This document shows, one piece after another, positions 13,801 through 52,378 of a DNA stretch of 64,000 nt (within the stretch, counting starts at the first letter, position 1; every line of letters starts with the position of its first letter). The DNA comes from Winogradskya humida (lineage in GTDB: Bacteria; Actinomycetota; Actinomycetes; Mycobacteriales; Micromonosporaceae), in assembly GCF_016862215.1 (NCBI RefSeq), contig NZ_BOMN01000080.1, positions 1 through 64,000 on the forward strand, given 5' to 3'. The notes beneath the pieces are model-generated. The model made no database searches. It worked only from the letters and a program-made list of their open reading frames with translations, and was not told the origin of the DNA. Made by a program: the position numbers and the translations under genes.

Positions 13801-14448
13801 CGGGACCCGGACCAGCCAGACGAACTCGTCCGGCCCGTTCAGGATCTCCGCGGTGATCTTGTACTCGACCGCGGCGAACCACTCGCGCAGCTCACCGGCG
13901 AGCACCTCCGCCGGGGAGTGGTTGCGGACCATGTAGCGGACGATCTCTTCCGGCGTGCTCATCCGGTCGATGCGGTCCACGAGGTCGCTGACGCTCTGGT
14001 GGACGTCGCCGACCTTGCGCTCCAGCCGGGCCTGCGCGGCGCTGCGGGTCCTGTCGACGAGCTGCTCGAAGACCGCCTGGAAGCCGGTCAGTTCCAGCGC
14101 GAGGTTGTAGTCGATCCGGCCCAGGCCACCGGTCTCGTCGTTCCACTGCAGAACGAGGTCGACCTCACGGCGCAGGTGGCGTTCGTCGCCCGACTCGAAG
14201 GACTTCCGGAAGGCCGCCATGACGAACTCGTTGCGGAAGAGCAGGATCACCGGCTCCGGCTTGCCGTAGCAGAACTCCACGATGGCGTACGTGTAGACGC
14301 CGTCGAAATCGGCCGGCGGGCGATCCGGTGCGAGATGGACCTTTTTCAGGGCCGCGACCACGGCCTCTTTGCGCTTCAGTCGCTCCAGCGCCGGCTTGGC
14401 ACCCAGCGTGAGCATCTTGACGAGGGCCGAGGTCTCCACAACTGCCAC
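10813..14448 (-). CDS. NACHT-domain STAND NTPase with pentapeptide repeats; candidate anti-phage sensor
   Basis: A 1211-aa cytoplasmic protein. Residues 1-150 form an unassigned helical N-terminal region. Residues about 165-290 look like a restriction-endonuclease-like alpha/beta domain (ending DEIFCYTLDELID) without obvious catalytic residues. The NACHT NTPase follows: Walker A GEFGMGKS at 360-367, Walker B LLLIFDGFDE at about 440-449, and sensor LLTCRTEHF at about 477-485. A helical region with HRSLLEFFAAYKF follows. Pentapeptide-like repeats (SLRGAHLDDAVL...LRRADLAGTDLEDV) lie at about 815-885, and a beta-rich propeller-like C-terminus completes the protein. Bacterial NACHT proteins are known anti-phage STAND sensors, so a defence role is inferred. 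The GTG start is 8 nt after AGGG. The gene lies just after the thaumatin-like gene on the same strand. Confidence 0.85.
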   Translation of the reverse strand: MAVVETSALVKMLTLGAKPALERLKRKEAVVAALKKVHLAPDRPPADFDGVYTYAIVEFCYGKPEPVILLFRNEFVMAAFRKSFESGDERHLRREVDLVLQWNDETGGLGRIDYNLALELTGFQAVFEQLVDRTRSAAQARLERKVGDVHQSVSDLVDRIDRMSTPEEIVRYMVRNHSPAEVLAGELREWFAAVEYKITAEILNGPDEFVWLVRVPARRGYDPVVVLGIGAEMSRPDVLRAASLVGEHRAKEGWVIAPQRVSQAARIADEELDEIFCYTLDELIDERADFEPYLQWLEEEVRTRHIDTCYVPLTCAKDDIDRRSGKVGGTSVYPWTGGGLDDYVGGWLEDDTKEHLSVLGEFGMGKSWFCLHYAWTLAQEWRAAKAAGRKRPRLPLVVPLRDYAKAVTVESLFSEFFFRKHEILPDGYRVFETLNRLGRLLLIFDGFDEMAARVDRQAMINNFWELARAVVPGSKVLLTCRTEHFPEAQQGRDVLGARLVASTSALTGAPPQFEVVELQPFADEQIGELLSRITDTPTRNLVLGNEELMELMRRPVMSELALAALPAIEAGAKVDLARVYLYAVQHKIDADIKAERTFTSLADKVFFLCELSWHMLAESVLTINYREIPDRIRACFKDVVQEQRDLDHWHYDMMGQTMLVRDADGNYTPAHRSLLEFFAAYKFAAELGLMDADFMALIGATEPAEAPSFAWSEVVRTTSDQRRTAFGWRPEPMETITALFATDNVSEELLRLTVSMFTAEAGADLVRMLAGTRHLGPDADRTIGASLVRVIAETDVTSLRGAHLDDAVLPSAILDRDGGGLDLSGCSLRRADLAGTDLEDVVLVDADLSGAVLAESSFLGFERRAVARLLQISGEAVLFSDRQNRIFTWTAGEAPASLLEANSRVASLSRFPDGRIVVVTSEAKDNGVVSYLLEPGSGARRTFGVFSYQVVAVVLRDRPLLLSHLSHNDSMRIAVLGCDDFQEIARVSIPHYRYGSFVSDGTGRVVGLVDTDLLGSDPSDKAVVELTLSDSGTLEYEIIDSLADAPAPVREVSFLGAGRTALVQGEHKGQLHLSLFEREWTGRRDFVFPSDVTWGGPPYPVSERRICSVNEAGTVAAVVSGNVVRVFALADMSRPRFVVDLPRVTNFLILRGVELLVVANAYGRVAAFDLGTGALVDEFTLSRNVRGANFTGVVGVPPEVLAQLRFNGAVL

Positions 14449-15752
14449 CGCGGCACCCTACCGCCACGTGAAGTGATCATGAGATCACCCGGGGGCGGGG
14501 GCGGGGTCCCGGCGGCGGAGGCGGCGGGGGTGCCTGACCCCCGGCGAGGGTGACCAGGGCGCGGTGCCATTTCTGGTTGGCGAAGCCGTTGCAGGTCCAG
14601 ATGTTGAGGGGGGGCGCCGTTGGCGGGGTTCCAGCCGCCGATGTCGAGGCATTTGTTCGACGCGGTGTTGACGATGTCGCCGGCGGCGGTGATCCGCCAT
14701 TGCTGGGCGCCGGTGCCGTTGCAGGTGTAGAGCTGGACCCAGCCGCCGTCCGCGGTGGAGCCGTCCGCGACGTCGACGCATTTGCCGCCGATGCGGATCG
14801 TGGTGTCGGGGGCGAAGGTGAAGCGCTGGCCCTGGGCGTTCCAGCAGTCCCAGACGCCGAGCCGGACGCGGTCGGAGTATTCGCCGTTGGGGACGTCGAC
14901 GCATTTACCGTTCCAGTCGCTGATGATCTGCGTTTCGGCGCCGGTGGGCGGCGGCGTGGCCGGTGGTGGCGTGACCCCGTCGTTGGCGTGGAAGGTGACC
15001 GTGAAGCCGGTGCACTCCTTGCAGTTGTACATGACCTGGTTGCCGGGCTCGGTGTCGTGCTTCGACCAGCTGTACGCCCGCGGGCACGCCGCCTTGATCG
15101 CCTGGCTGTAGTCCGTGACCGCGTCGCGGTTGGGATTCACGCAGAGCAGCGGCCTGCCCTGGCCGTCGCGGCGCAGGTATGCCGCCGGGCACGCACTGAG
15201 CAGTGGTTTCGCGCAGCCGGCCTCGGCGCAGTACTGCGATCCGGGAGCGGGTGCCGGCGCACCGTACGGCGTGATGGTGATCGGCAGCGACACGGCGTTG
15301 ACATAGCTGACGTTGTACCAGGGCGCGCCCCACGGGTCGGACGGGTCGAAGTTGAACTCGGCGAGGCTGGCGTCCTGCTCATAATTGATCGCGCAGTGGT
15401 CGGCGGCGTTCCCGCAGTCCCCGACCTCGCAGTGGAACGTGCTGCCGGTCTCACCCGCGCAGCGTTGCCGGGCGAAGAACTTGCCGCGCCAGTGCCCGGG
15501 GGTGGTGTTCTCCGGGATGACGATGGTCGCGGACGCGCCGGGTTCGAGGATCGGCAGCCGGGTGAAGTTGACCGACTCGTCGGCGTTGACCGTGCTGCCG
15601 ACCCACACCTTCTCACCGCTGGCGTTGACGAACGTCACCGTGTGCTCGCCGGCCGCCCGCGCCGCCCGTCCCCCGGCTATCAGCCCGCCGGTGATCAGGG
15701 CGAGGATCACGACGACGGCGAGCAGAACGCGGCGTAAGGCGACAATCGACAC
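14376..15752 (-). CDS. Secreted thaumatin-like protein with ricin-type lectin domain, frameshifted C-terminus
   Basis: A GTG start and a signal peptide (RRVLLAVVVILALITGGLIAGG, ending ARA) are followed by a thaumatin-like domain (residues about 35-255) with many Cys and the family-like CPRAYSW motif. A Pro-rich linker leads to a ricin B-type beta-trefoil (about 275-400; KCVDVPNGEYSDRVRLGVWDC, QQWRI). At the G7 run 14608-14614 the frame is shifted. Removing one base restores NIWTCNGFANQKW, including the last QxW, then a Pro/Arg tail ending at 14477. As written, the frame reads through unrelated sequence to 14376 and overlaps the NACHT gene by 73 bp. It likely binds or attacks cell-wall glucans (inference). 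Confidence 0.8.
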   Translation of the reverse strand: MSIVALRRVLLAVVVILALITGGLIAGGRAARAAGEHTVTFVNASGEKVWVGSTVNADESVNFTRLPILEPGASATIVIPENTTPGHWRGKFFARQRCAGETGSTFHCEVGDCGNAADHCAINYEQDASLAEFNFDPSDPWGAPWYNVSYVNAVSLPITITPYGAPAPAPGSQYCAEAGCAKPLLSACPAAYLRRDGQGRPLLCVNPNRDAVTDYSQAIKAACPRAYSWSKHDTEPGNQVMYNCKECTGFTVTFHANDGVTPPPATPPPTGAETQIISDWNGKCVDVPNGEYSDRVRLGVWDCWNAQGQRFTFAPDTTIRIGGKCVDVADGSTADGGWVQLYTCNGTGAQQWRITAAGDIVNTASNKCLDIGGWNPANGAPPQHLDLQRLRQPEMAPRPGHPRRGSGTPAASAAGTPPPPPGDLMITSRGGRVPRWQLWRPRPSSRCSRWVPSRRWSD

Positions 15753-15834: not shown

Positions 15835-16524
15835 TCAGACCCGGGACAGGGCCCGATCGCTGACCACGCACTGCATGCCGAACTGGTGGGCACGGCGGAC
15901 CGCGAAGTCCGTCAGGCCCGGGGTGTCCGCGTAGTCGAGGGCGTACAGGTCAAGTTGCAGTTGCAGTAACTGCTCCGCGATCTGCGCGTGGAACTCGAGC
16001 ACGTCCGCGGGCCAGGGCGCGTACCCGTCGTCGGTCCAGCGGGCCGAGAACGACTCGAAGACCACCCCGTCGACCAGCTCGGCGAGCCGCGGCAGCATGC
16101 CGAAACCCCGGTTGGCCAGCATGTACGCGGGCTTCGCCTCGGCCCGGATCGCCGCCACCAGGGTCAGCAGGTGCGGCACGTCCTCCGGGTAGGTCAGCTC
16201 GACGTTCAGCGTGTCGAGGAACAGCCCGTCGAACCCGGCGGCCATCGCGTCGCGGGCCTGGCCGACCACGTGCGCCACCCACTCTGGGTGTCCGACGTGG
16301 ACGAAGGAGCCGCCCCAGTCCGGGTTCTTCTCGGCGCGCTGCCAGACGGCCGGTGGGCCCTGGTCCTCCGACAGCGTGAGGTAGCCGAGGGTCTGCACAC
16401 CGCGCTCCTTGAGGAACGCGATCTCCTCGGGTTTGTAGAACTCCGGCTGGAGCACCACCCGCGGATAGCCGGCGAGCTCGGTGAGTTTGCCGTTGCCGTA
16501 GTAGAAGCAGATCGGGTCGGTCAT
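15835..16524 (-). CDS. GH114-like TIM-barrel protein without signal peptide
   Basis: A 229-aa protein resembling endo-alpha-1,4-polygalactosaminidase (GH114/TM1410 superfamily). Visible features are an LGYLTLSEDQG strand, GFDGLFLDTLN with the acidic pair expected at the barrel's catalytic face, and VDGVVFESFSARWTDDGY with a second Glu. No signal peptide or lipobox is seen, so it should be cytoplasmic, unlike the lipoprotein GH114 at 18841-19869. Its ATG overlaps the stop of the epimerase gene by 4 bp (ATGA). It is the last gene of the exopolysaccharide operon. Confidence 0.65.
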   Translation of the reverse strand: MTDPICFYYGNGKLTELAGYPRVVLQPEFYKPEEIAFLKERGVQTLGYLTLSEDQGPPAVWQRAEKNPDWGGSFVHVGHPEWVAHVVGQARDAMAAGFDGLFLDTLNVELTYPEDVPHLLTLVAAIRAEAKPAYMLANRGFGMLPRLAELVDGVVFESFSARWTDDGYAPWPADVLEFHAQIAEQLLQLQLDLYALDYADTPGLTDFAVRRAHQFGMQCVVSDRALSRV

Positions 16525-17489
16525 GACGGTCTCCCGTGCTCGGCGTACCAGGCGTACGTCGATCGCACGCCCTCCTCGAGCGACACCTTCGGCTCGTAGC
16601 CGGTCAGCGACCGCAGCCGGGTGAGGTCCGGGCAGCGCCGGCGCACCGAGCCGGGCGGGGCCGGGGTGGCCGCGACCACGGGGTTCGCCCCGGCCACGCG
16701 CAGCACCAGCTTCGCCAGGTCGCCGATGTTGGCCTCCTCGCGGTCGTTGCCGATGTGCACGATCTGACCGGCCGCCTCGGGCGTGGTCATCAGCCGCACC
16801 ATCGCCTCGACGGCGTCGTCGACGTGGCAGAACGCGCGGAACTGGTCGGCGCCGGGCACCAGGAACGGGTCCTCGCCGGCCTGCGCGCGCAGCGACATCT
16901 CGGGGATGACGTGGTCGGCGCCCATCCGCGGGCCGTACACGTTGTGGAAGCGGCCCACCACCGTCTCGAAGCCCTTGGCCCGCGCGGTGTGCAGGAACGC
17001 GGCTTCGCCGAGGAGCTTGCTGGCCGCGTACGCGAACCGCGGCGCCGTGATGTCCGAGATCATCACCGGGATGTCCTCGGCGGTCGGCACGCTGACGACC
17101 CCGGCGTCGACGCCGCCCGCGTACACCTCGCTGGTGGAGGCGAAGAAGACCCGCTCACCGGGCGCCACCCAGTCGAGCAGGTGCATCGCCGCGAGGGTGT
17201 TGACGCGGACCACACGCGCCGGGTCCTGCTCCACGTTGCGCACCCCGACGACGGCGGCGAGCAGGTAGATCTGGTCCCAGCCGTGCGCCAGCCCCGCATA
17301 GGCGGACGGGTCGGTCAGATCCGCCGAGATCACCTTCACGCCGGGACGGGCGATCAGCTCGTCGAGGTCGGCGTCCTTGCGGCCGCGGGAGAAGTCGTCG
17401 ACGATCGTGACCTCGTACCCCTCGGTGGACAGGCGGCGGGCGAGGTGCAGGCCGATGAACCCGGCGCCGCCGAGCAGTAGCGCCCTCAT
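16521..17489 (-). CDS. NAD-dependent sugar epimerase/dehydratase (extended SDR)
   Basis: A 322-aa extended SDR for nucleotide sugars. GGAGFIGLHLARRL is the NAD-binding motif and FFASTSEVYAG carries the catalytic Ser/Thr. AYAASKLLGE supplies the YxxxK pair and VVGRFHNVYGPRMG is the substrate-loop pattern of GalE/RmlB-type enzymes. The longest frame begins far upstream (18032) in the wrong frame of the dehydrogenase gene. The real ATG is at 17489 and overlaps the dehydrogenase stop by 4 bp. In this cluster a UDP-Glc(NAc) 4-epimerase role, supplying GalNAc/Gal units, would fit (inference). Confidence 0.85.
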   Translation of the reverse strand: MRALLLGGAGFIGLHLARRLSTEGYEVTIVDDFSRGRKDADLDELIARPGVKVISADLTDPSAYAGLAHGWDQIYLLAAVVGVRNVEQDPARVVRVNTLAAMHLLDWVAPGERVFFASTSEVYAGGVDAGVVSVPTAEDIPVMISDITAPRFAYAASKLLGEAAFLHTARAKGFETVVGRFHNVYGPRMGADHVIPEMSLRAQAGEDPFLVPGADQFRAFCHVDDAVEAMVRLMTTPEAAGQIVHIGNDREEANIGDLAKLVLRVAGANPVVAATPAPPGSVRRRCPDLTRLRSLTGYEPKVSLEEGVRSTYAWYAEHGRPS

Positions 17490-18799
17490 GCCGAAACCGC
17501 CGAGACCGACGGGAGGTAGCCGAGACCGGCGTAGCGGATGCCGAGCGCTTCCACGGCGGAGCTGTCGAGGATGCGCCACGAGTCGAAGATCAGCGCCGGG
17601 CGGCTGTCGCCGAGCAGCTCCGTCACCTCGATCGACCGGTAGTCCGGGTGGTCGTTGATGACGAGGATCGCGTCCGCGTCGGTGAACGCCTTGTCGAGGC
17701 TGACCGGGTCGCCGCCGTACTGCCGGATGACGTCCTCGGTGACCATCGGGTCGTGGCCGGTCACGGTGATGCCGGCGGCCGAGAAGATCGGCATCATGTC
17801 GGCGATCGGCGTGCCCCGCATGTCGTCGGTGGGAGGCCAGCCCTTGTACGCCCACCCGAGCACCGCGAGCCGCAGCCCCCGCGTCTCCCCGCGCGCCTCG
17901 GCCAGCAGCCGCACGACGGTCTCGGCCACGTGCTTGGGCAGGAACTCGTTGAGCGCCCGCGCCTGACCGACCAGGTACGGCTCGTAGTCCCCCGCGCTGT
18001 CCAGCATGATGTACGGGTCCTTCGACAGGCACCCGCCGCCGACGTACCCGGGCTTGGCCAGGTCAGGGCGCGGGTAGCCGACGTTCGCCGCCCGCAGGAC
18101 CTCCAGGGGGTCGAGGCCGTGCTGCTCGGCGATCAGCGCGATCTCGTTGCCGAACGAGTAGATGAGGTCGGTGTGGCAGTTGTTGGACAGCTTCACCATC
18201 TCGGCGGTCTCCAGATCGGAGACCTCGACGACGGTCTGCGCCAGACCGCTGAAGAACTCCACACCGGCCCGCAGGCTCGCCTCGTCCAGGCCGCCGACGA
18301 CCTGCGGCAGCTCGACGAGCTCGCGCAGCGCCTGACCCTGGATCGTGCGTTCCGGGGCCATCACCAGCTTGACGTCGTCGCCCCACGCGGCCCGCAGCTC
18401 GGGCAGCACGACCTTGCGGCTGGTGCCGACCGGCACGGTGCTGCGCACGACGACGAGCGTGCCCGGGCGGCACGTCGCGGCGACGCTGCGCGCGGCGCTC
18501 GCCAGGTTGGCGAGGTTGGGCCGGCGGGTGCTCTCGTCGACCGGCGTGGAGACGCTGATGACGGCGACGTCGACGGTGTCGCGCGGCAGTTCGGCGGCGA
18601 CGTGGACGCCGTTGCCGACCCGGGCGGCGAAGATCTCCTCCACCCCGGGCTCGAAGATGTGCGACCGGCCCTGCGACAGGGTGTCGATCACCGTGGGCGA
18701 CACGTCAGCGCCGTGCACGATGAATCCCTTGTCGGCCAGAGCCGCGGTCAGGGTGAGCCCGACGTAGCCGAGCCCGACGACCCCGATCGTCATAGGCAT
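17486..18799 (-). CDS. Nucleotide-sugar (UDP-glucose/UDP-HexNAc type) dehydrogenase
   Basis: A 437-aa member of the UDP-glucose/GDP-mannose dehydrogenase family, which oxidises C6 of a nucleotide sugar to a uronate with two NAD+. It shows GVVGLGYVGLTLTAALADKG at the N-terminus, STPVDESTRRPNL, VVRSTVPVGTSR, the MVKLSNNCHTDLIYSFGNE helix, and GGGCLSKDPY with catalytic Cys257. The C-terminal UDP-binding domain has GWAYKGWPPTDDMRGTP. The sequence style is nearer WecC/WbpA enzymes than Ugd. The ATG at 18799 has GGAGGGG 7-8 nt upstream. It ends in an ATGA overlap with the epimerase. Confidence 0.88.
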   Translation of the reverse strand: MPMTIGVVGLGYVGLTLTAALADKGFIVHGADVSPTVIDTLSQGRSHIFEPGVEEIFAARVGNGVHVAAELPRDTVDVAVISVSTPVDESTRRPNLANLASAARSVAATCRPGTLVVVRSTVPVGTSRKVVLPELRAAWGDDVKLVMAPERTIQGQALRELVELPQVVGGLDEASLRAGVEFFSGLAQTVVEVSDLETAEMVKLSNNCHTDLIYSFGNEIALIAEQHGLDPLEVLRAANVGYPRPDLAKPGYVGGGCLSKDPYIMLDSAGDYEPYLVGQARALNEFLPKHVAETVVRLLAEARGETRGLRLAVLGWAYKGWPPTDDMRGTPIADMMPIFSAAGITVTGHDPMVTEDVIRQYGGDPVSLDKAFTDADAILVINDHPDYRSIEVTELLGDSRPALIFDSWRILDSSAVEALGIRYAGLGYLPSVSAVSA

Positions 18800-18840
18800 G
18801 TGGTTCCCCTCCAGTACTTCGGTGTGTGTCGGCCGCCGCG

Positions 18841-19869
18841 TCACGGACACGGCGGGCTGGGCCGATCCAGGTCCAGCACGGTGACCGTGCCGGCGAAACG
18901 TTCGGTCCGGTACCGCGCGCAGGCGCTGCGCACGTCCGCGGCCCGGGTCGCGTAGTCGACGCTGAGCACGAACTTGCCGGCGTCCCGCAACGCCCGCGTC
19001 TCGCTCAGGTTCTCCGCGCAGTAGTCCTCGGTGCACCGTTCGTCGGTCGCCTGGTAGAACAGCTCCTCCATGGCGATGCCGTCGACGGCCGCGGTGTATC
19101 CGGGCTGGTGCCGCAGTTCCGGCGAGTTCTGCGGGACGATCAGAAAATCCTTACTGCGGCCCTTGGCGTACGCGGAGATGCGCGCGATCAGCCCCGCCAT
19201 GTCCCGGGCCAGCCGCTGCCGGTCCCTGCCCTGCACCGAGCCGAGATCGATCTCCTCGTACGCCAGGGGCGTGTCCAGGTAGACGCCGTCGAACCCGGCC
19301 CGCAGAGCCTGGTCGACCCGGGGCCGCACGACCCGCTGCCACCACCGTTCGTCGTAGTAGCGCACGAAGTACTCGCCGGGCCAGTCCCCCCACTCGTTGG
19401 CGATCAGCTCGGGCGCGTCGCGTCGCAGCCCCGGATACTCCGGCCGGAAGTCCTCGATGCTGCCGATCTCGAAGTACGCCAGCACGCGCTTACCGGTCGA
19501 CCGCACCTTCGCGATCTCGGCGGCGGTGAAGTAGTCCTCGTGCGCGTCCCGCGCGAGATCCACCACGACCACCTGCCACGGCCCGGCCGCCAGCTGATCA
19601 AGCTTCCCGCCGTCGTAGTCCTGCAACTGGTACGCCCACGAGCGGAACTCCACCGGCGTGGTCGACCCGGGCGTGGCCGGCACCGGCGCGGTCGATCCCG
19701 GCGCGGAAGCCGGTCCCGGCGCGGAAGTCGGTCCCGGCGCGACGGTAGGCGCCGGGGACAAACCGGACGTCGAAGGAGCGGGCGGCTGCGGAGAGGAGTC
19801 CTCCGAGCAGGCCGCCATGAGGAAGAGCACGGCGGCCACGCAGAGGATGCGGTGGCCGTGGAGTCTCAC
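18841..19869 (-). CDS. Lipoprotein endo-alpha-1,4-polygalactosaminidase (GH114)
   Basis: Signal peptide with lipobox LMAAC (Cys21), then a Pro/Ala/Ser/Thr linker with repeated GPxSAPG units (about 22-70), then a TIM barrel (about 72-342). The barrel has WAYQLQDYDGG, RVLAYFEIGSIEDFRPEY, GFDGVYLDTPLAYEE, FLIVPQNSP and GIAMEELFYQ, all typical of GH114 (TM1410), with Asp and Glu at the strand ends. GH114 enzymes cleave galactosamine-containing polymers. Fungal Ega3 is one and belongs to the galactosaminogalactan pathway. The extracytoplasmic anchoring fits trimming of the exported polymer. The ATG overlaps the SDR stop by 4 bp. Confidence 0.82.
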   Translation of the reverse strand: MRLHGHRILCVAAVLFLMAACSEDSSPQPPAPSTSGLSPAPTVAPGPTSAPGPASAPGSTAPVPATPGSTTPVEFRSWAYQLQDYDGGKLDQLAAGPWQVVVVDLARDAHEDYFTAAEIAKVRSTGKRVLAYFEIGSIEDFRPEYPGLRRDAPELIANEWGDWPGEYFVRYYDERWWQRVVRPRVDQALRAGFDGVYLDTPLAYEEIDLGSVQGRDRQRLARDMAGLIARISAYAKGRSKDFLIVPQNSPELRHQPGYTAAVDGIAMEELFYQATDERCTEDYCAENLSETRALRDAGKFVLSVDYATRAADVRSACARYRTERFAGTVTVLDLDRPSPPCP

Positions 19870-20744
19870 CCGGGCGCCCCCGCCCAGATGTTCGCGATGG
19901 ACGTCTCCAGGTCGTGCTGCGGTTTCCAGCCGAGCTCGTCGCGGGCCCGGCTGATGTCGGCCTGGATCCAGTCGACCGCGGCGGAGCGCTGCGGCCCGGT
20001 CCCGGCCTCCCGGACGGCCCCCTTCCAGCCGGCCCGCTCGGCGAGCAGGCCGACCGCGGCGCGTACGGTGACCGCCCGCCCGCTGCCCGCGTTGTAGACC
20101 CGGCTGCGCAGCCGTGGCTCGGTGACGACCGCCCGCAGCAGCGACGCGATGTCCTGGACGTCGACGAAGTCCCGGTAGGCGCCCAGCGGCCCCAGCGTGA
20201 TCTCCGTCGAGCCGTCCGCGAGCGCTTCCCTGATCCGCTGCGCGGCCCGGCCCAGGACGTTCTCCGCCGGTTGCCCCGCGCCGATCGGGTTGAACACGCG
20301 TACGGACACGGCATCCAGCCCGGACAGCGTGAACAATCGCGTGCCGGCGACGTGGCTGACACCGTACGCGCCGACCGGTTCTGTCCTCGCGTCCTCACCC
20401 ACGGCCTGGCCGTGCGGCACGACCCCGTATTCCCCGGCCGAGCCGAGCCGGACCAGCCGCGCGAACGGCACCGCCTCGGCCGCCGCCTCGAGCAGTTTCG
20501 CCGCGACGAGGGTGTTGGCCCGCACGAGGTCCTCGCCGGAGCCGCCGAGCGCCCCGACGCAGCTCACCACCGTGTCCGGGCGTTCGGCGCGCAGCAGTTC
20601 CGCGAGCTCGGTCACGTCCCCGGCGATCAGGTCGTGGCGGTCCCGCCCGGGACAGATCAGGTCCCCGACCCGGTCGTCGGCGGTCAGCGCCGCCCGGACA
20701 TGTCCTCCGATGAACCCGGACGACCCGAAGAGCAGCACCCTCAT
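19866..20744 (-). CDS. SDR-family sugar epimerase/reductase with altered active site (YxxxH)
   Basis: A 292-aa extended SDR with [11 protein letters not shown] at the N-terminus, [19 protein letters not shown] and [11 protein letters not shown]. The position of the catalytic YxxxK reads AYGVSHVAG: Tyr127 is kept, but the Lys is His131. [12 protein letters not shown] and [11 protein letters not shown] are normal substrate-loop patterns. The substitution suggests a changed or weakened catalytic mechanism, or a structural role. It is coupled by ATGA overlaps to the nucleotidyltransferase upstream and the GH114 lipoprotein downstream. Confidence 0.82.
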
Positions 20745-21469
20745 ACCGGCTCACCCAGCCGTTCGCGCAGGATCAGCGGCCGGATCCGCTCGAAGCTGCG
20801 GTTGGCCTCGTCGTAGTCCTCGGGCCGCCCGATGTCCAGCCAGAACCCCTTGAACGGGTACGTCGCCGGGTTGTCGCCGCGGGCCAGCAGGTCGAGCACC
20901 AGCTGGTCGAACCCGAAGGACAGACCCGCCGGGTACGGCGCCAGCGTGTGCCGCGACATGCCGTACACGCCCATGCTGACCTGGTAGTGCAGCTCGGGCT
21001 TCTCGCGGAACCCGACGATCCGCGAGGCCTCGACGTCGAGCACGCCGAACTCCACCTTGTGGGTGCGCTCGGCGATCGCGACGGTCAGCCCCCCGGCCGA
21101 CAACGCGTGCTGGTGCAGCAGGTCGGCGTAGTCGAGGTCGGTCAGGATGTCGCCGTTCATCACCAGGAAGTGCTCCGGCAGCGACTCCTTCAGGCCGAAC
21201 AGCGGCCCGACCGTCGACAGTGGCCGGTCCTCCTCGATGTAGTCGACGCGCAGCCCCCAGCGGTCCCCGTCGCCGACGAACGCCCGGATCAGCGGGCCGA
21301 GATGGTTGATCGCGAGGGTGACCGACGTGAAGCCGCACCCCGCGAGCTGCTCGAGGACGATCTCCAGGATCGCGTGCTTGTCACCGATGGGCATCAGCGG
21401 CTTGGGCAAGGTCGTGGTGTACGGCCGCAGCCGCACGCCCTTGCCGCCGGCAAGAATCACCGCATGCAT
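20741..21469 (-). CDS. Sugar-phosphate nucleotidyltransferase
   Basis: A 242-aa NTP_transferase protein that would form an NDP-sugar from a sugar 1-phosphate. [16 protein letters not shown] is the nucleotide-binding signature with the catalytic Arg, [10 protein letters not shown] follows, [13 protein letters not shown] holds the metal-binding Asp, and [19 protein letters not shown] and [12 protein letters not shown] are typical of GMP/dTMP/UMP transferases. The length is that of a lone catalytic domain without a left-handed beta-helix. The base and sugar specificity cannot be read. Its stop overlaps the SDR start by 4 bp. Confidence 0.88.
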
Positions 21470-21497
21470 AGCAGTTCTGCCTCCCCATGGTCGTGAT

Positions 21498-23258
21498 CTA
21501 CCGGAAGTGGCGGACCTGGCCCGCGAACGGGGACAGGCCGTACAGGAACAGGCCCTGCAGCGCGACGACGCTGCCGAGATAGAGCAGGGTGTCGGTCAGC
21601 GGATGCGCCGTCCGACCCAGCAGGGGCGCGGCGCCGAGGGCGGCACCGATCCCGATGTGCACCGCGAGCGCGGCCAGCATCGACCAGCAGAGCCAGCCGA
21701 AACGTTCGAAGCCGGCCAGCAGGAACGCGGAGTAGTAGGCGCCGCCCAGCACGACGTGCGCGGCGATCATCACCACGCCGGGTGCCGAGAGCCACCCGGT
21801 CAGGGCCAGCCCGGCCACCAGCACCAGGCCCAGACCCGCCGGGACGGCCAGGCAGAGCAAGGTCTCCCGGGCGATGAGTACGCGCATCGCGCGCTGGAAG
21901 TCCTCGGGCCGGTGACTGAGCCGGGTGATCCGGACCGCGGCGGCCCGGAATCCCTCGGCGCGCCACTCGACGAACCCCATGGCAAGGATCAGCGGGGCCA
22001 CCGCGGCCGCGATGTCGAGCCTGTTCAGCAGGTACGGCGCCTCGGCGTGCAGGAGCAGGGCGGCCGAGCACAGGCCGTACCACGTGACCCCGGCCAGACC
22101 GGGCAGCTGCAGGCGCAGCAACGGCAACCCGGACGCCTCCGCCACGTCGCCCCGGTTCCGGGTGAGCAGCAGCGCGGCGACGTAGGCGGCGGTCACCCCG
22201 GCAGCCGCGGTGACGAGCGCCGGGGTCCGCAGGGCCGGGCCGGCCAGGAGGTACGCGCAGCCGAAGACGACCGCCGGCACCATGGTCAGCGCCTGGACGC
22301 CCTCGCGGCGGTAGAACACCAGCACCGTGCCGGCCAGCTGATAGCCGAGCTGGCACATGGCGAGCACGACCAGCCCCCAGCCACCGCCGGTGACCGCCAC
22401 CACGAGGAACCCGCACGCCGCACCTGCGAACGGCGCACCCACGGTCGCGAAGCGCAGGAGCCGGGCGGCGGCCCGCGGGCGGTTGCCTCCGAGCAGCTTG
22501 TACGCGGCGAACGCGGCCGTCCCGGCGTACAGCCAGCCGAGCGCGCTGGCCAGGGTCAGCGCGAGCACCACCGACCGCTGCCCGAGCACGCCGAGCACCG
22601 CGGGGAACACCGCGCTGGGCAGGGCGTACAGCGGGCCGTGTGCGAGGACCCGGAGCCCGGCCCGCCACGTCCGCGGGGTGTCCGCCGCCGCCGGTTGTTC
22701 GAGGGGCGGGCCGAGCCGGCGGTAGACCTCGACGGCGAGGGCGAACACGTCGGCGAAGCCGTACTCGACCTTGGCGCCGCGGTCGGTGAAGCCGTCCGAT
22801 TCGAGGGCGGCGGCGACCTGCAGGGCGTCGACGGCGCGGGCCAGCTTGGGCCGCATCCGGTCGACGAGCTCCTCCAGGGGATCGTCGGAGATCCGGGGAA
22901 GAACGACGGTGTGGATCGGCGGGCCGCCCGCTGCCTTGTCCGCGCCGGCGGAGGTGCCGTCCGGCCGTGCGGGGCCCGCGGGGGCGCGGCGGGTCCGGCG
23001 TGACTGCGGCGGGATCGGGGGCCGGATCACCTGGGTGTCGGAGTTGTCGGTCCGGTGCGCCCCGGCGGTGTTCGGCGCGGGCATGCGTACGGTCCGGTCG
23101 CCGACGTCCATGCGGACGGTCTCGTCCGGGAGCACGATGCGGGGGGTCTCGTCCGGAAGCTCGATGCGGGTGGTCTCGTCCGGAAGCTCGATGCGGACGG
23201 TCTTGTCGCCGATGTCGATCCGCACGGTCTCGGTGCCGGCCTCGTCGTTCACTGTCAC
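21498..23258 (-). CDS. PelG-like polysaccharide flippase/synthase subunit with N-terminal repeats
   Basis: A 586-aa membrane protein. Residues about 11-59 are five to six copies of a 9-10 aa unit (VRIELPDET), followed by a Pro-rich linker and a soluble helical stretch ([21 protein letters not shown]). From about residue 150 there are about 12 membrane helices, in the MATE/oligosaccharide-flippase style of PelG ([55 protein letters not shown]). PelG pairs with the glycosyltransferase PelF. Here the PelF-like gene is directly upstream with a GTGA overlap (23255-23258). The GTG at 23258 was chosen because the frame upstream lies inside the pelF-like gene. Confidence 0.75.
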
Positions 23259-24808
23259 AGCTGCCCACCCGTGTAGAGACCCGAGGTGGCGGCGGAACGC
23301 TGCCGCGGCGGCCTGGCCCGGCCCTGCGCCGTGCCGCGCAGGTGCTCCGGCTGCTCGGCGGCACCGATCGGCGTCGCGAGTCCTTCGTAGACGTTGCGGT
23401 ACATCTGCAGCGACTGGCTGAGGGTGAAGTGCTCGAGGACCCGGGCGCGTGCGGCGACGCCGAGCCGGAACCTCAGCTCGTCGTCGCGCAGCAGCTTGAC
23501 GCAGGCCTCGGCGACGGCGGCGTGGTCGCGCGGGGCCACCACGATGCCGGTCTCCCCCACCGCCTCGGACACCCCGCCGACGTTCGTGCAGACCGTGGGC
23601 CGCCCGCAGGCCATGGCTTCGACCACGGTGTACGGGAAGCCCTCGGAGATGCTGGTCAGCGCGACGATGCTGCCCGCGTGGTACGCGTCGACGGCGTTCC
23701 CGATGCGCCCCTCCAGCACCGCCGAGCCGGTGAGCCCGAGCTCCTCGATGAGCAGCTCGCAGGACTCGTGGTAGATCCGGTTCACGGCGGGCGTACCCCC
23801 GAAGATGCGCAACCGGGCCGCCGGGATCTCCTTCTTCACCAGAGCGAATGCCCTGATCAGCGTGTGCAGGTCCTTGAGCGGGTCGATCCGGCCCATGAAC
23901 GAGATCGTCGGCACCCCGGGCTCGCTGGTCGCCGCGGGGAACTCGGCCGGCTCGACGCCGTTGTACATGGTCCACATCCGGTCCGGGTCCGCGCCGTTGT
24001 GCAGCTGCCAGCGGCGGTTGTACGCCGAGTGCGGCGCGAGCACGTCGGTGATGAGGTACGCCGCCCCCGCGAGGGACCGGAAAAAGCTCAGCGCCAGCAC
24101 GCGCACCGCGTGCGAGGCGTCGTCGTCCAGGTACGAGATGTAACGCTCCCGCAGGTAGATGCCGTGTTCGCTCATGACGATCGGGGTGCCGTAGCGCCAC
24201 TTGGCCGCCATGGCCACGAGCGTGGACAACCCGTTCATCGAGCAGTGGATGATGTCGGCCTGGACGACCGGGGCGCTCAGCGGCCGCAGCATGTGCTCGA
24301 TCAGCCAGGCGGCCTGGATCGCGTCCGCCACGGTCGGCGCCGGGGACGTCTGCTCGACGCGCAGCTCACGCCACGCGTCGAGCATCATGCCCAGGGCCTC
24401 GTTCGACACGAGCGCGGCGCTGAGGTCCCCGCCGTCCGCGGCGTACTCGTAGAGCCCGCGCAGGGCGAGCAGGAACATGCTGCGGCTGACCGCGCCCTGC
24501 TCGGACAGCGTCGTCTCCAGCGGGGTGACCAGGGCGCGCAGGAACACCGCGTACGACTCGGTGAAAGCGGCCCCGGGTTGCTGGTTGTTGCGCCTGGGGT
24601 TGTCCGGCCCGCTCCCCCAGAGGGGGATCGAGTGGACGTTGTCCAGGTTCACGGGCGGGGCGAAGACGGATTCCTCGCTGCCGTCCACGGTGAGCGCGAC
24701 GACCTCCCAGCGGTAGTCCGGGATGCCTCGGATGAGCTGCTCACACCAGATGCTCACCCCGCCCATCGCGTAGGGGTACGTCCCCTCCGACACGAGTGCG
24801 ACACGCAC
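23255..24808 (-). CDS. PelF-like GT4 glycosyltransferase
   Basis: A 517-aa GT-B glycosyltransferase with the characteristic PelF start VALVSEGTYPYAMGGVSIWCEQLIRG and the PelF-type middle region (HCSMNGLSTLVAMAAKWRYGTPIVMSEHG, then ERYISYL). The C-terminal GT4 domain has ISFMGRIDPLKDLHTLIRAF and the EX7E motif in SEGFPYTVVEAMACGRPTV. PelF is the cytosolic polymerase of Pel, using UDP-sugars such as UDP-GalNAc/GlcNAc. It is coupled to the PelG-like gene. The ATG start matches the family N-terminus exactly. Confidence 0.87.
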   Translation of the reverse strand: MRVALVSEGTYPYAMGGVSIWCEQLIRGIPDYRWEVVALTVDGSEESVFAPPVNLDNVHSIPLWGSGPDNPRRNNQQPGAAFTESYAVFLRALVTPLETTLSEQGAVSRSMFLLALRGLYEYAADGGDLSAALVSNEALGMMLDAWRELRVEQTSPAPTVADAIQAAWLIEHMLRPLSAPVVQADIIHCSMNGLSTLVAMAAKWRYGTPIVMSEHGIYLRERYISYLDDDASHAVRVLALSFFRSLAGAAYLITDVLAPHSAYNRRWQLHNGADPDRMWTMYNGVEPAEFPAATSEPGVPTISFMGRIDPLKDLHTLIRAFALVKKEIPAARLRIFGGTPAVNRIYHESCELLIEELGLTGSAVLEGRIGNAVDAYHAGSIVALTSISEGFPYTVVEAMACGRPTVCTNVGGVSEAVGETGIVVAPRDHAAVAEACVKLLRDDELRFRLGVAARARVLEHFTLSQSLQMYRNVYEGLATPIGAAEQPEHLRGTAQGRARPPRQRSAATSGLYTGGQL

Positions 24809-24839
24809 TGGATTTCCGCCTTCCCCCCGTCCGCCGCGA

Positions 24840-27065
24840 TCAGGCCCGCGGAGCCGCGGTCACCGTCACGGCCGTGTTCGCCACGAGGGCGATCGGCGCC
24901 GAGACATCGCTGCCGTACGTGCTCGACGTCGCCGCCGTCACGCCGCTGAGCTGCACCGTGCCGGTCAGCGGCGAGGTCACCGTGACCGTGCCGGTGGACC
25001 GGTCGTAGACCGGGTCGGCCCCGGCGGCCCGCTGCGCGAAGTGCGCGTTACGAACCGTCGTGTACGCGCCGAGCGAGGACCAGTCGAGGTTGATCAGCGG
25101 CGTCGCGTAGAGCGAGTCGTACTTGCCGACAACGCTCTCGGTCCAGTCCGTGAGCAGCGACTTACCGGCGTTGTAGTCCTTCACGTTCGCGATGTGGAAG
25201 GTGTGCGTGTTGATGCCACCCGACGCCACGTGCTGCAGCGCCACGCCGGCCTCGTAATCCACGATCTGCGCGTACGTGCGGTCGGTCGGCCAGTACGGGA
25301 AGCGGCCGTTCGGGCCGTAGAAGGAGTTGTAGAACGCGGTCTCCTCCTCCGGCGTGGTGACGTGGTACGCGATGTTGGTCGGCCAGTCCGGCACCACCGA
25401 CAGGCTCGTCTCCAGGGGGTGCACGATGCTGGTGTTGAAGTTCGCCGGCACGTGGCTCGCGAACGAGAAGTTGCCGTGCAGGTACTTCACCCCGAGGTCC
25501 TTGGCCGCCTGCAGCAGGTTCGGGTTCGAGCCTGCCAGGCCGTGATCGACGGGTACGCCGGTGTCGTCGTCGGGGTCGGTCGTGTAGACGCCGAGCCCGG
25601 AGTACTCCGGGGTCTTCAGCACGTCGTTCGGCGTCGAGATGCCCGCGGCGGTGGCAGCCGTACGGTTATCGTTGATCTCGCCGTAGGTCGTGGCGTAGTT
25701 GGTGGTGTTCAGCTCGTAGTGGTTGAGCGTGTGGTTCAGCCACCGGAAGTCGTTCTTGAGGCACTTGCTGGTCGCCGTCAGCTCGGTCGCCCCGCCGTTC
25801 GGGCTGCACGTGCTGCCCGCGAACGGGTCGATGTCCGCGCCGTTGAGGGCCAGGTTGTAGGTGAACCCGGACGCCTGCGGGTGCGCGGTGCGCAGCGCGG
25901 CCTGCTTGTCCTTGAGGTTGACCATGTCGTGCGCGGAGACCTGGTAGCCCGGCGTGTACTCGACGTGACCGTCCGGGTAGTAGTGGTCCGAGGTGTTGAA
26001 CCAGTCGTCGACGTCGACGTTGAGGTAGTGCCGCTGCTCGCCGAGGAACATGCCCTTGGTCGCCCACCGCACCACGCCGTAGACCAGCAGGTCCGACTGC
26101 AGCAGGTACTGGTTCAGCGTGAACGTCAGCGCGAGCCGCTCCCGGCCGTCGGTCGACGTCGTCCGCACCCCGAGCACGTTCGTGCCGTCGGTCAGCGTGG
26201 AGTCGGCGCTGCAACCCGCGGCGATCGAGGTCTTGTAGACGTACGACTGCACCACCGGGATCGTGGCGCTCGCCTTCAGGTAGTCGAACACCCCGGCACC
26301 CGCCGCGGTGAAGTTCACGTTCAGCGGGGTGTCACCGACCGAGGTCTCCCCGGCGGAGCGCAGGCAGTAGTCCTCGGGCCAGGTGCCGTAGCTGGTGTAG
26401 AGCGCGGCCTGGCGGACACCGAAGTTCCGCTCGTACGCCCAGAGGATGTTCCACTCGCCGCTCTCGAGGCCGTTGAGGTAGGCACCCCCGGACGAGTAGA
26501 CCAGCATGCTGTTGGTCAGCAGGACCGCGTTGTACTTGCCGACGCCGTCCGCGCGCACCAGCGTGCCGGTGGTCAGCGTCGTGTCGGCCGAGTAGAGCAC
26601 GTCGTAGGCCGCACCGAGTCGGTCCAATGTGGCCTTGTAGGTGGCGACACCGAAGTCGTTGGTGTCGGTGGCGATGATCAGCGAGCGCAGGGCGACCTGG
26701 TCGTTGACGCCTGCCACCGCGGCAGCCTTCGCCGGGGCCTTGCCGGGCGTGGTCACGGCGACCTTGCCGGTGCGCTTCGGCAGCGGCGCGGGCGGGGTGA
26801 CCCGCGGCTGGGCGACCTGGCCGTAACCCGGGACGCTGGGCGCGGTTCCGGCGGGAGCGCGCAACTCGGCCTGGGTTTGAGCGCGCAGTGCGGCCTGGGT
26901 TTGAGCGCGCAGTGCGGCCTGGGTTTGAGTGTGCTGGGCCGGCTGGGCGCCGGCCGGTGTCGGCGCGGCGGCCACGAGGGCACCGGCGCACAGCACGGCG
27001 AAGAGGGAGCGGATCCCCCGTCGTTGGACGATCACTCGTCGTTGGACGAGACGAGCAGGAGCCAT
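24840..27065 (-). CDS. Secreted Agd3/CE18-like polysaccharide deacetylase
   Basis: A 741-aa secreted protein. An N-terminal signal sequence (IRSLFAVLCAGALVAAAPTPAGA) is followed by three copies of an 8-aa unit (QTQAALRA) and a Pro/Lys linker. The middle part (SLIIATDTNDFGVATYKATLDRLG, WNILWAYERNFGVRQAALYTSYG) matches my memory of Agd3, the fungal galactosaminogalactan deacetylase that founded CE18. NodB-like metal motifs are visible: NVDVDDWF at about residues 348-355 and NHTLNH at about 444-449. A C-terminal beta domain (TVTSPLTGTVQLSGV) follows. The frame upstream of the ATG at 27065 is not family-like. It would deacetylate hexosamines to make the polymer cationic. Confidence 0.72.
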   Translation of the reverse strand: MAPARLVQRRVIVQRRGIRSLFAVLCAGALVAAAPTPAGAQPAQHTQTQAALRAQTQAALRAQTQAELRAPAGTAPSVPGYGQVAQPRVTPPAPLPKRTGKVAVTTPGKAPAKAAAVAGVNDQVALRSLIIATDTNDFGVATYKATLDRLGAAYDVLYSADTTLTTGTLVRADGVGKYNAVLLTNSMLVYSSGGAYLNGLESGEWNILWAYERNFGVRQAALYTSYGTWPEDYCLRSAGETSVGDTPLNVNFTAAGAGVFDYLKASATIPVVQSYVYKTSIAAGCSADSTLTDGTNVLGVRTTSTDGRERLALTFTLNQYLLQSDLLVYGVVRWATKGMFLGEQRHYLNVDVDDWFNTSDHYYPDGHVEYTPGYQVSAHDMVNLKDKQAALRTAHPQASGFTYNLALNGADIDPFAGSTCSPNGGATELTATSKCLKNDFRWLNHTLNHYELNTTNYATTYGEINDNRTAATAAGISTPNDVLKTPEYSGLGVYTTDPDDDTGVPVDHGLAGSNPNLLQAAKDLGVKYLHGNFSFASHVPANFNTSIVHPLETSLSVVPDWPTNIAYHVTTPEEETAFYNSFYGPNGRFPYWPTDRTYAQIVDYEAGVALQHVASGGINTHTFHIANVKDYNAGKSLLTDWTESVVGKYDSLYATPLINLDWSSLGAYTTVRNAHFAQRAAGADPVYDRSTGTVTVTSPLTGTVQLSGVTAATSSTYGSDVSAPIALVANTAVTVTAAPRA

Positions 27066-52001: not shown

Positions 52002-52284
52002 GCCCCCTGCATCGGCGCAACCACCCCCGCCCTGAGGAAAACCACCCCCAGCCCCGCCCCCGACAAGATCCCCACAAGTCACGAGCCCACGCTGCCGGAC
52101 CCACGCCCCCACGACCATCCAGAAAACGGACCAACGACTCACCAACCCCGATGACCCCTTACCCAGGACCGGTATTTCGCCGCGGCGGCAGGGGCGGGCC
52201 AGACCTGGCATGTCGCGCACGGCCGGGTGACAAACCTCCACCGGTCGGCCCGTCGCCCCAAATCCCGCCCGCCGGCCATGTCCC

Positions 52285-52378
52285 GGCCGCACCACACCGG
52301 GCCACACCGGGCCGGGCCGCACCGGGCCGGGCCGCACCAAGCCGGGCCGCACCAAGCTGGGCCGCACCAAGCCGGCTT
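52285..52378. repeat. 15-bp tandem repeats
   Basis: Six or so copies of a 15-bp unit (gccgggccgcaccaa and variants with accg or acac) lie in the gap upstream of the HAAS-domain gene. The remainder of 52002-52687 is Pro-codon-like low-complexity sequence with no gene that I can support. Confidence 0.75.

Follow-up and report, generated by a model that had tools for sequence, protein, structure and literature searches.

What would an actinobacterium make with a gene cluster whose parts recall both the bacterial Pel pathway and the fungal galactosaminogalactan (GAG) pathway? The question is raised by nine adjacent genes in Winogradskya humida (genome of 11.1 Mb in 182 contigs), within the first 64,000 nucleotides of contig NZ_BOMN01000080.1, the stretch analyzed here and referred to as the window. 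An earlier note, made from the letters alone, had described these genes as an exopolysaccharide cluster that mixes bacterial Pel parts with fungal GAG-type enzymes. We consider it likely that the operon makes a Pel/GAG-type hexosamine polymer in a Gram-positive cell by the following general mechanism. A PelF-type glycosyltransferase of family GT4 would polymerize a nucleoside diphosphate (NDP)-activated N-acetylhexosamine (HexNAc) in the cytosol, most likely UDP-N-acetylgalactosamine (UDP-GalNAc), and a protein with a MOP fold would move the chain across the membrane. Outside, a secreted CE18 protein may strip some of the N-acetyl groups and a surface-anchored GH191-like protein may cleave the deacetylated stretches, while a GH166-like protein, in which no signal peptide was seen, would cut or clear the chain inside the cell. 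A nucleotidyltransferase (NTT), a nucleotide-sugar dehydrogenase (NSDH), and one of two short-chain dehydrogenases/reductases (SDR1) would supply a second nucleotide sugar, a uronate or pentose, that decorates or partly replaces the chain in most, not all, members of the lineage. The polymer is probably hexosamine-based; its exact substrate, the linkage, the cell location of the parts, and the order of the steps are what we infer from the evidence set out below.

A conserved operon and its distribution

The nine minus-strand genes of the earlier note, mostly joined by 4-bp overlaps, are borne out: all nine open reading frames lie where they had been placed (Table 1), and five of the eight junctions overlap by 4 bp (PelF/exporter, NTT/SDR2, SDR2/GH191, NSDH/SDR1, and SDR1/GH166-like). 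The other three are short gaps of 31, 28, and 41 bp, the last of which separates the GH191-like gene from NSDH, whose ATG start lies at 18799.

Table 1. Genes of the operon in the window, ordered from 27065 down to 15835.
Predicted product	Length (aa)	Position	Strand	Basis
Agd3-like secreted polysaccharide deacetylase (CE18 with CBM87)	741	24840..27065	-	PF25115, PF25116, fold
PelF-type GT4 glycosyltransferase, putative polymerase	517	23255..24808	-	NF038011, DUF3492
PelG-like membrane exporter, MOP fold	586	21498..23258	-	predicted structure, fold matches
Sugar-1-phosphate nucleotidyltransferase (NTT)	242	20741..21469	-	PF00483
SDR2, extended SDR nearest GDP-6-deoxy-mannose reductase		19866..20744	-	PF01370, relative 6X3B
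GH191-like endo-alpha-galactosaminidase (putative), N-terminal lipobox-like or membrane anchor	342	18841..19869	-	9EP5 match
NDP-sugar 6-dehydrogenase (NSDH)	437	17486..18799	-	TIGR03026
SDR1, extended SDR nearest UDP-glucuronate decarboxylase (UXS)	322	16521..17489	-	PF01370, 4LK3
Stand-alone PelA-hydrolase-like (GH166-like) protein, no hydrophobic N-terminus	229	15835..16524	-	5TCB match

A scan that took one genome from each of 84,980 species and used five aligned deacetylase sequences as query recovered at least 20 loci, a lower bound because the scan rests on two short peptide patterns. Four further loci (L011-L014; L numbers are our locus labels) were left out of this count since their genomes overlap the counted set, and L007 was left out of the deacetylase residue counts. 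Eight of the 20 belong to Actinoplanes and genera split from it, seven to Micromonospora, two to Asanoa, and one each to Mangrovihabitans, Catenuloplanes, and Nonomuraea; the nearest relative found is Winogradskya consettensis (L023), an Actinoplanes relative whose deacetylase is 96% identical. The neighborhood search that had been proposed for this locus finds the core of the operon in constant order in 20 genomes, mostly Actinoplanes relatives and Micromonospora. Because the Agd3-like, PelF, exporter, and NTT genes share order and strand in all 20 loci, the arrangement is not a product of chance, and the nine genes at 15835-27065 form one conserved operon. SDR2 is present in 19 loci and absent from Nonomuraea soli (L040), which carries a smaller set that also lacks NSDH and SDR1. 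In two loci (L031 and L033) the contig ends after SDR2; among the 18 others, the GH166-like gene occurs in all, NSDH and SDR1 in 17, and GH191 in 15. The nine proteins diverge in step, as their correlated pairwise distances show (Spearman 0.71-0.92). This is expected of a unit that was inherited together, though shared species ancestry would give the same pattern.

CE18 proteins are rare in these bacteria: within the order, 5 of 249 genomes match the CE18 profile PF25115, and within the phylum 6 of 396 do (Winogradskya humida included); two other actinobacterial classes give 2 of 39 and 1 of 24 genomes. Seven proteins that flank the operon in the window were sought in 24 loci and were present only in L023 and L024, in a comparison where some loci are short and the downstream side covers only about 1 kb in most; the operon therefore mostly sits in other surroundings. 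One flanking gene, 82 bp downstream of the operon (14376-15752, minus strand), encodes a thaumatin-family protein with a ricin-type lectin domain. It also adjoins the operon in L023 and stands on the opposite side of the operon in L024; the remaining loci searched, with little sequence covered downstream, did not show it. A gene at 10813-14448 (minus strand) encodes an NLR-like protein that combines NNH5, NA-iREase1, and NACHT with pentapeptide repeats; NLR-like proteins of the NNH5/NACHT type occur in anti-phage defense. A GGDEF-EAL protein (c-di-GMP turnover) is encoded about 23 kb away from the operon (49683-52370, minus strand).

Predicted polymerase, exporter, deacetylase, and hydrolases

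The PelF-like GT4 named in the earlier note is well supported by profile, as the protein scores 165.1 bits with NF038011 (cut-off 100) and 161.4 bits with DUF3492, and the motif SISEGFPYT[VI]VEAM is present in 21 of 21 sequences. The Agd3/CE18-like deacetylase holds equally: by profile and predicted fold, the protein is a predicted deacetylase of CE18, the Agd3 family. Its two domains score 41.9 bits (PF25115, the esterase domain) and 37.9 bits (PF25116, CBM87), both above cut-offs of 27.6, and a profile of 21 orthologues has a single match among PDB sequences up to E 1, namely Agd3 (6NWZ, E 4.5e-22). In the predicted structure (pLDDT 77.2, with residues 1-118 below 50), residues 119-741 match the Agd3 crystal structure over three domains (Z 30.3, rmsd 3.1, 560 aligned), and the second-best structural match is human NDST1 (Z 22.6). 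The metal ligands, catalytic base, and acid (D353, D354, H445, H449, and H624; CM1 Asp-Asp, CM2 HxxxH, and CM4 His) are invariant in 21 of 21 deacetylases. The hydrophobic N-terminus is read as a signal peptide and is followed by a short repeat, QTQAALRA.

The membrane protein had been called PelG-like, and this stands as far as a MOP-flippase fold is concerned but not as PelG by profile. The exporter had no match in Pfam, among PDB sequences, or in NCBIfam (where the query was a longer 900-aa frame), and its placement comes from an AlphaFold model (pLDDT 75.0). In this model the N-terminus is disordered, with most values below 50 as far as residue 123; a small helical domain follows at about 126-183, and after it come 12 long membrane helices arranged in a MOP fold. 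The best Foldseek match is WzxE; VIA-align gives Z 21.4 for MATE1 and 18.4 for WzxE, and MurJ was also matched. In the alignment under the model, the rows of L027, L028, L029, L031, and L033 start inside the PelF gene, which affects only the disordered N-terminus. That part carries three short RIELPDET-type repeats in the window (23100-23210, minus strand) and only one in W. consettensis.

The exporter has relatives in the CE18 clusters of other bacteria (outgroups, as opposed to the lineage of the 20 loci). Its profile matches five of six tested exporters from such clusters at 34-110 bits (Streptomyces at 109.9; Kocuria, Deinococcus, and one further actinobacterium at 34-44), with no detectable relation to the Thermus exporter in the same search, and the lineage exporters compared as a set with six outgroup exporters reach 99.8%, with an alignable N-terminal domain common to both. 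Given this kinship and the lack of a PelG profile match, the protein is better named an exporter of CE18 clusters. Among six plasmid records examined out of 13 with a CE18 match, CE18, PelF, membrane-protein, and galactosaminidase-type genes cluster in five, two from Deinococcus and one each from Thermus, Streptomyces, and Kocuria. In two actinobacterial genomes (L017 and L018; G259 and G288) PelF, a true PelG, and a CE18 deacetylase are contiguous, so that the canonical Pel pair is joined there by a deacetylase of Agd3 type.

Both hydrolases had been labeled GH114-like and PelA had been reported missing, and neither statement survives. Placed by profile against solved structures, which is not CAZy's own assignment, the last protein of the operon appears better related to GH166 and the sixth to GH191, and neither to fungal-type GH114. 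A profile of 19 GH166-like orthologues matches the PelA hydrolase of Pseudomonas aeruginosa (5TCB, E 8.5e-21, 77.6 bits), so that the absence of a PelA homologue was wrong; GH191 structures score about 20-22 bits (TM1410 about 22), and there is no Ega3 match up to E 1. All 19 have D104 and E157, which align with the PelA catalytic acids, E157 with a residue that differs between 5TCB and 5TSY. The protein itself scores 23.9 with GH114 (cut-off 27), and 11 of the 19 members match GH114 at E<=0.1. The GH191-like profile (16 orthologues) scores 337.1 bits with Env-GH191 (9EP5), about 133 with TM1410, and 34.1 with Ega3; the protein scores 126.3 bits with PF03537 and 171.3 bits with TIGR01370, just under the cut-off of 181.25, and its catalytic acids D199 and E268 are kept in 16 of 16.

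Several findings weigh against a Pel/GAG-type polymer made and processed in this way, and the first is the exporter. The PelG profile PF16933 has no match at E<=1 in the Winogradskya humida genome, while two other genomes in the same search score 459 and 470.6 bits and 7 of 396 genomes of the phylum lie above cut-off. Direct profile-profile comparison with true PelG, drawn from four actinobacterial genomes and six plasmid records (6 of 19 with a PelG match), gives 0.2%. A pair of intermediates (L016 and L021) reaches 95.9% with PelG over 367 columns (the L061 row is poorly trimmed), yet the lineage with five outgroup exporters gives 0.7% and six outgroup exporters alone give 0.3%; because these wider sets, L016 included, did not link, we claim no homology to PelG beyond the MOP fold. 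The PelG identity of the exporter was set aside, since the Pfam, PDB-sequence, and direct profile-profile comparisons were all without a PelG match. Of the two profile matches on which the earlier note had jointly staked its reading, then, the one to PelG is missing and the one to CE18/Agd3 was found.

A second PelF homologue in the same genome (L084, 7991-9778, plus strand, G000:C81) scores 202.2 bits with NF038011, higher than the operon PelF, and the 19.9 kb around it hold no CE18, exporter, or hydrolase of the operon set; one SDR match beside it and two GT4 matches, both weak, are the only cluster-type parts there. A PelF label alone is therefore no proof of a Pel polymer. Nor is CE18 always accompanied by PelF, because a Burkholderia stagnalis CE18 record has no PelF within 7 kb on each side and another CE18 locus (L015) has none nearby. 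PelD (PF16963) had no match in the Winogradskya humida genome, in a search that lacked a working positive control, and PelE, for which no aimed search was made, was not among the assignments of the nine genes. Four other GH114-profile proteins are encoded elsewhere in the genome. The cell locations, finally, are read from a hydropathy scale that is crude and whose ranges nearly touch: the maximum 15-residue Kyte-Doolittle mean at the N-terminus is at most 0.87 in 19 of 19 GH166-like proteins, at least 0.91 in 20 of 21 deacetylases (the outlier, at 0.15, probably has a badly chosen start), and at least 1.08 in 16 of 16 GH191 proteins. From these values the GH166-like hydrolase seems to stay inside the cell. 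Its relatives in the two Deinococcus and the Thermus clusters (136-199 bits) are likewise not hydrophobic at the N-terminus (0.13-0.55), and in four of five outgroup clusters one hydrolase with a hydrophobic N-terminus is paired with one without, the Kocuria GH114 as annotated having none. The Streptomyces californicus and Kocuria rosea CE18 clusters are without a GH166-like gene and encode Spherulin4 (GH135) proteins that show no clear signal peptide (L066, 17853-18515, and L067, 15067-15753; hydropathy 0.96 and 0.98).

Precursor sugars, the altered deacetylase site, and what the polymer may be

The nucleotide-sugar genes bear on which sugar is used. The nucleotide-sugar dehydrogenase and nucleotidyltransferase that had been proposed are both supported by profile, NSDH confidently as an NDP-sugar dehydrogenase (TIGR03026, 303.2 bits, cut-off 189.8; catalytic Cys in 18 of 18; nearest solved relatives UDP-ManNAcA dehydrogenase 4R16, Cap5O, and CalS8). 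NTT scores 119.2 bits with PF00483 and is nearest to guanylyl- and uridylyltransferases, its best NCBIfam models being mannose-1-phosphate guanylyltransferase (119.3) and MurU (104.4), both below cut-off; orthologues occur in three other CE18 clusters (353-396 bits). The two supposed SDR epimerases are indeed both SDRs (PF01370, 152.4 bits for SDR1 and 95.4 for SDR2), although neither is shown to be an epimerase. SDR1 has UDP-glucuronic acid decarboxylase 1 as its best solved relative (4LK3, 129.9 bits) and carries the motifs STSEVY, RRxPDL, and YAxSK each in 18 of 18, while the best solved relative of SDR2 is 6X3B. NTT, SDR1, and SDR2 all fall short of any equivalog cut-off, and neither nucleotide nor sugar specificity can be read from these scores.

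It is possible, as a tentative alternative, that the main sugar is a modified HexNAc and not plain GalNAc. In some Deinococcus and Streptomyces clusters, NTT together with a LegB-type 4,6-dehydratase and a 4-ketoreductase would give an NDP-6-deoxy-HexNAc (FucNAc/QuiNAc type); the lineage studied here has no LegB, its reductase has lost the Lys, and NSDH with the UXS-like SDR would give a uronate or pentose. The LegB model scores 478.1 bits (cut-off 475) in D. aquaticus and 453.6 in Streptomyces californicus, clusters that hold orthologous NTT and SDR2 genes and show no NSDH in the stretch examined, and only 93.3 with SDR1 of the window; the LegB-type dehydratase without NSDH suggests a 6-deoxy-HexNAc precursor in those outgroups and a rebuilt pathway in this lineage. 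The catalytic YxxxK of SDR2 is likewise YxxxH in 20 of 20 members of the lineage and keeps its Lys in three of three outgroup orthologues, and NSDH and SDR1 recur, as seen above, in nearly all loci that reach far enough. Against this, no NTT or SDR gene appears in the incomplete gene tables of the Kocuria and Thermus stretches, and Nonomuraea soli does without SDR2, NSDH, and SDR1, so that the core polymer does not need these sugar genes. The hydrolase families, moreover, are known for galactosamine (GalN) and GalNAc: studied members of GH166 and GH191 cut alpha-1,4-GalN/GalNAc polymers (PMC12054363; statements on this and the other papers cited refer to the parts of them that were covered).

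The other doubt concerns the deacetylase itself, whose activity our preferred reading, a partly deacetylated hexosamine polymer, takes for granted. Of the 21 deacetylases, 13 have D at the place of Agd3 R613, the CM3 Arg, while 7 have C and 1 has G (a place located by residue counting in the alignment of the orthologue profile with 6NWZ, with which the outgroup alignment agrees). In Agd3, R613 orients the base and is integral for activity, and CM3 is conserved in all fungal and most bacterial Agd3 homologues (PMC7229062). Deacetylation may therefore be weak, different, or absent here, and because an Arg needed for Agd3 activity is missing, that the polymer is cationic is less sure than had been claimed. 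It is rather unlikely, in our estimate, that the lineage's CE18 protein has ceased to be a deacetylase and become a binding protein or an enzyme for another acyl substrate, which would leave the polymer acetylated and its shaping to the hydrolases. The CM3 Arg is kept in 9 of 10 outgroup CE18 proteins (counted without the second D. aquaticus copy, L063 8951-11269), and the place of Agd3 M666, mutation of which abrogates activity (PMC7229062), is Thr in all 21, which would fit such a loss. The metal ligands, base, and acid, however, are kept in all 21, and the M666 place is not constant in the outgroups either, where five of the 10 proteins have M and the other five F or Y. The Thermus brockianus protein also has Asp at the Arg place, so the change may be tolerated, and CE4 enzymes source their arginine from elsewhere (PMC7229062). 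The CE18 label is retained, since bacterial members that lack CM3 belong to the family as published.

That the locus makes nothing and scavenges galactosamine polymers of fungi or other bacteria is very unlikely, for although it encodes two galactosaminidase-type enzymes and a CBM-bearing deacetylase, has the thaumatin/lectin gene just downstream, and shares its genome with the four further GH114-profile genes, its PelF glycosyltransferase, MOP exporter, and nucleotide-sugar enzymes are coupled in a kept order, one hydrolase is without a hydrophobic N-terminus throughout, and Pfam and NCBIfam profile scans assigned no importer or sugar-catabolic enzyme among the nine genes.

A bolder proposal, which we regard as unlikely but worth stating, is that the CE18 operons (bar the two with a true PelG) form a second Pel-like architecture without PelG and apparently without PelD. 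Its marks would be a MOP exporter of its own, which carries a helical domain at the N-terminus, and a pair of hydrolases, one outside and one inside the cell, of which the signal-less TIM-barrel galactosaminidase (GH166-like or Spherulin4/GH135) would act on the nascent chain in the cytosol. In Actinoplanes and Micromonospora the precursor pathway and the deacetylase site would have been rebuilt together, and the polymer would be a new hexosamine copolymer, neither Pel nor GAG.

If the polymer reading is right, actinomycetes that form spores and mycelium produce, with no PelD seen, an amino-sugar polymer like Pel and GAG, the known range of adhesive amino-sugar polymers widens, and two more galactosaminidases become available for biofilm testing. 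The fixed active-site changes offer a direct test of which CE18 residues are needed, and the signal-less hydrolase raises the question of whether trimming precedes export. As far as we have seen, the corrected family placement of the two hydrolases, a GH166-like enzyme that lacks a signal, the fixed changes in CM3 and SDR2, the NSDH/SDR1 branch, and the separate exporter family are new; a search of open-access papers, to which the literature survey was confined, found none on such a variant. The surprise is limited by the fact that the operon class is already in print.

Comparison with known systems

The closest published counterparts are the bacterial agd3 operons of Bamford et al. 2020 (PMC7229062), by which this operon class was already known. 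Agd3 homologues were reported there in 45 bacterial species, 30 of them Terrabacteria, with agd3 in or near carbohydrate-enzyme operons in 30 of the 35 bacterial species of the published tree, and operons of Actinobacteria are mentioned. Those operons share with the window a CE18/CBM87 protein, a cytoplasmic glycosyltransferase, a multi-spanning membrane protein, and genes of GH114 type, of which some operons have several; the parts of that paper covered here make no mention of GH166-like, GH191, LegB-type, or NSDH genes or of a fixed loss of the CM3 Arg. The framing as a mixture of bacterial and fungal parts was thus misleading, and a fungal-bacterial chimera was rejected as a novelty on the strength of these operons and of both hydrolases being nearer to bacterial structures than to Ega3. 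Two Actinoplanes regions were also considered: a link to the sporangium-matrix cluster wps-3 of Actinoplanes missouriensis was rejected, as the genes described differ (PMC13390465), and the published description of the maltose-regulated region of Actinoplanes SE50/110, in the part covered, holds no related genes (PMC7567727).

The clusters of Streptomyces californicus, Kocuria rosea, two Deinococcus, and Thermus brockianus (L063-L067) have the same CE18, PelF, and MOP-type exporter as the window, and four of the five exporters match the window exporter profile, that of Thermus being the exception; the D. aquaticus cluster has two tandem CE18 proteins (L063, 6704-11269, plus strand; 572 and 509 bits). 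They differ in carrying a LegB-type dehydratase (D. aquaticus and Streptomyces) where the window has NSDH and a UXS-like SDR, in the use of Spherulin4 (GH135) by Streptomyces and Kocuria where the window has a GH166-like protein, and in keeping the CM3 Arg (except in Thermus) and the SDR2 Lys (in the three that have SDR2).

The Bacillus cereus operon pelDEADAFG likewise combines PelF, a multi-spanning exporter, a deacetylase, and, nearby, a stand-alone PelA-hydrolase-like gene (PMC7112168). Its deacetylase is of type CE26 (PMC13254593), in contrast to CE18 in the window, and its hydrolase PelAH has a signal sequence (PMC7112168), whereas none is seen by hydropathy in the GH166-like protein of the window. 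Set beside this operon, the window also differs in an exporter without a PelG match and in that no PelD was seen.

The fungal galactosaminogalactan cluster consists of uge3, gt4c, agd3, ega3, and sph3, with the GT4 fused to a membrane part. The window offers a similar set of predicted functions, namely a nucleotide-sugar enzyme, a GT4 with a membrane part, an Agd3 deacetylase, an anchored endo-galactosaminidase, and a second TIM-barrel hydrolase. Unlike the fungal cluster, it encodes GT4 and membrane part as separate genes, and its hydrolases are GH191-like and GH166-like in place of the GH114 and GH135 of fungi.

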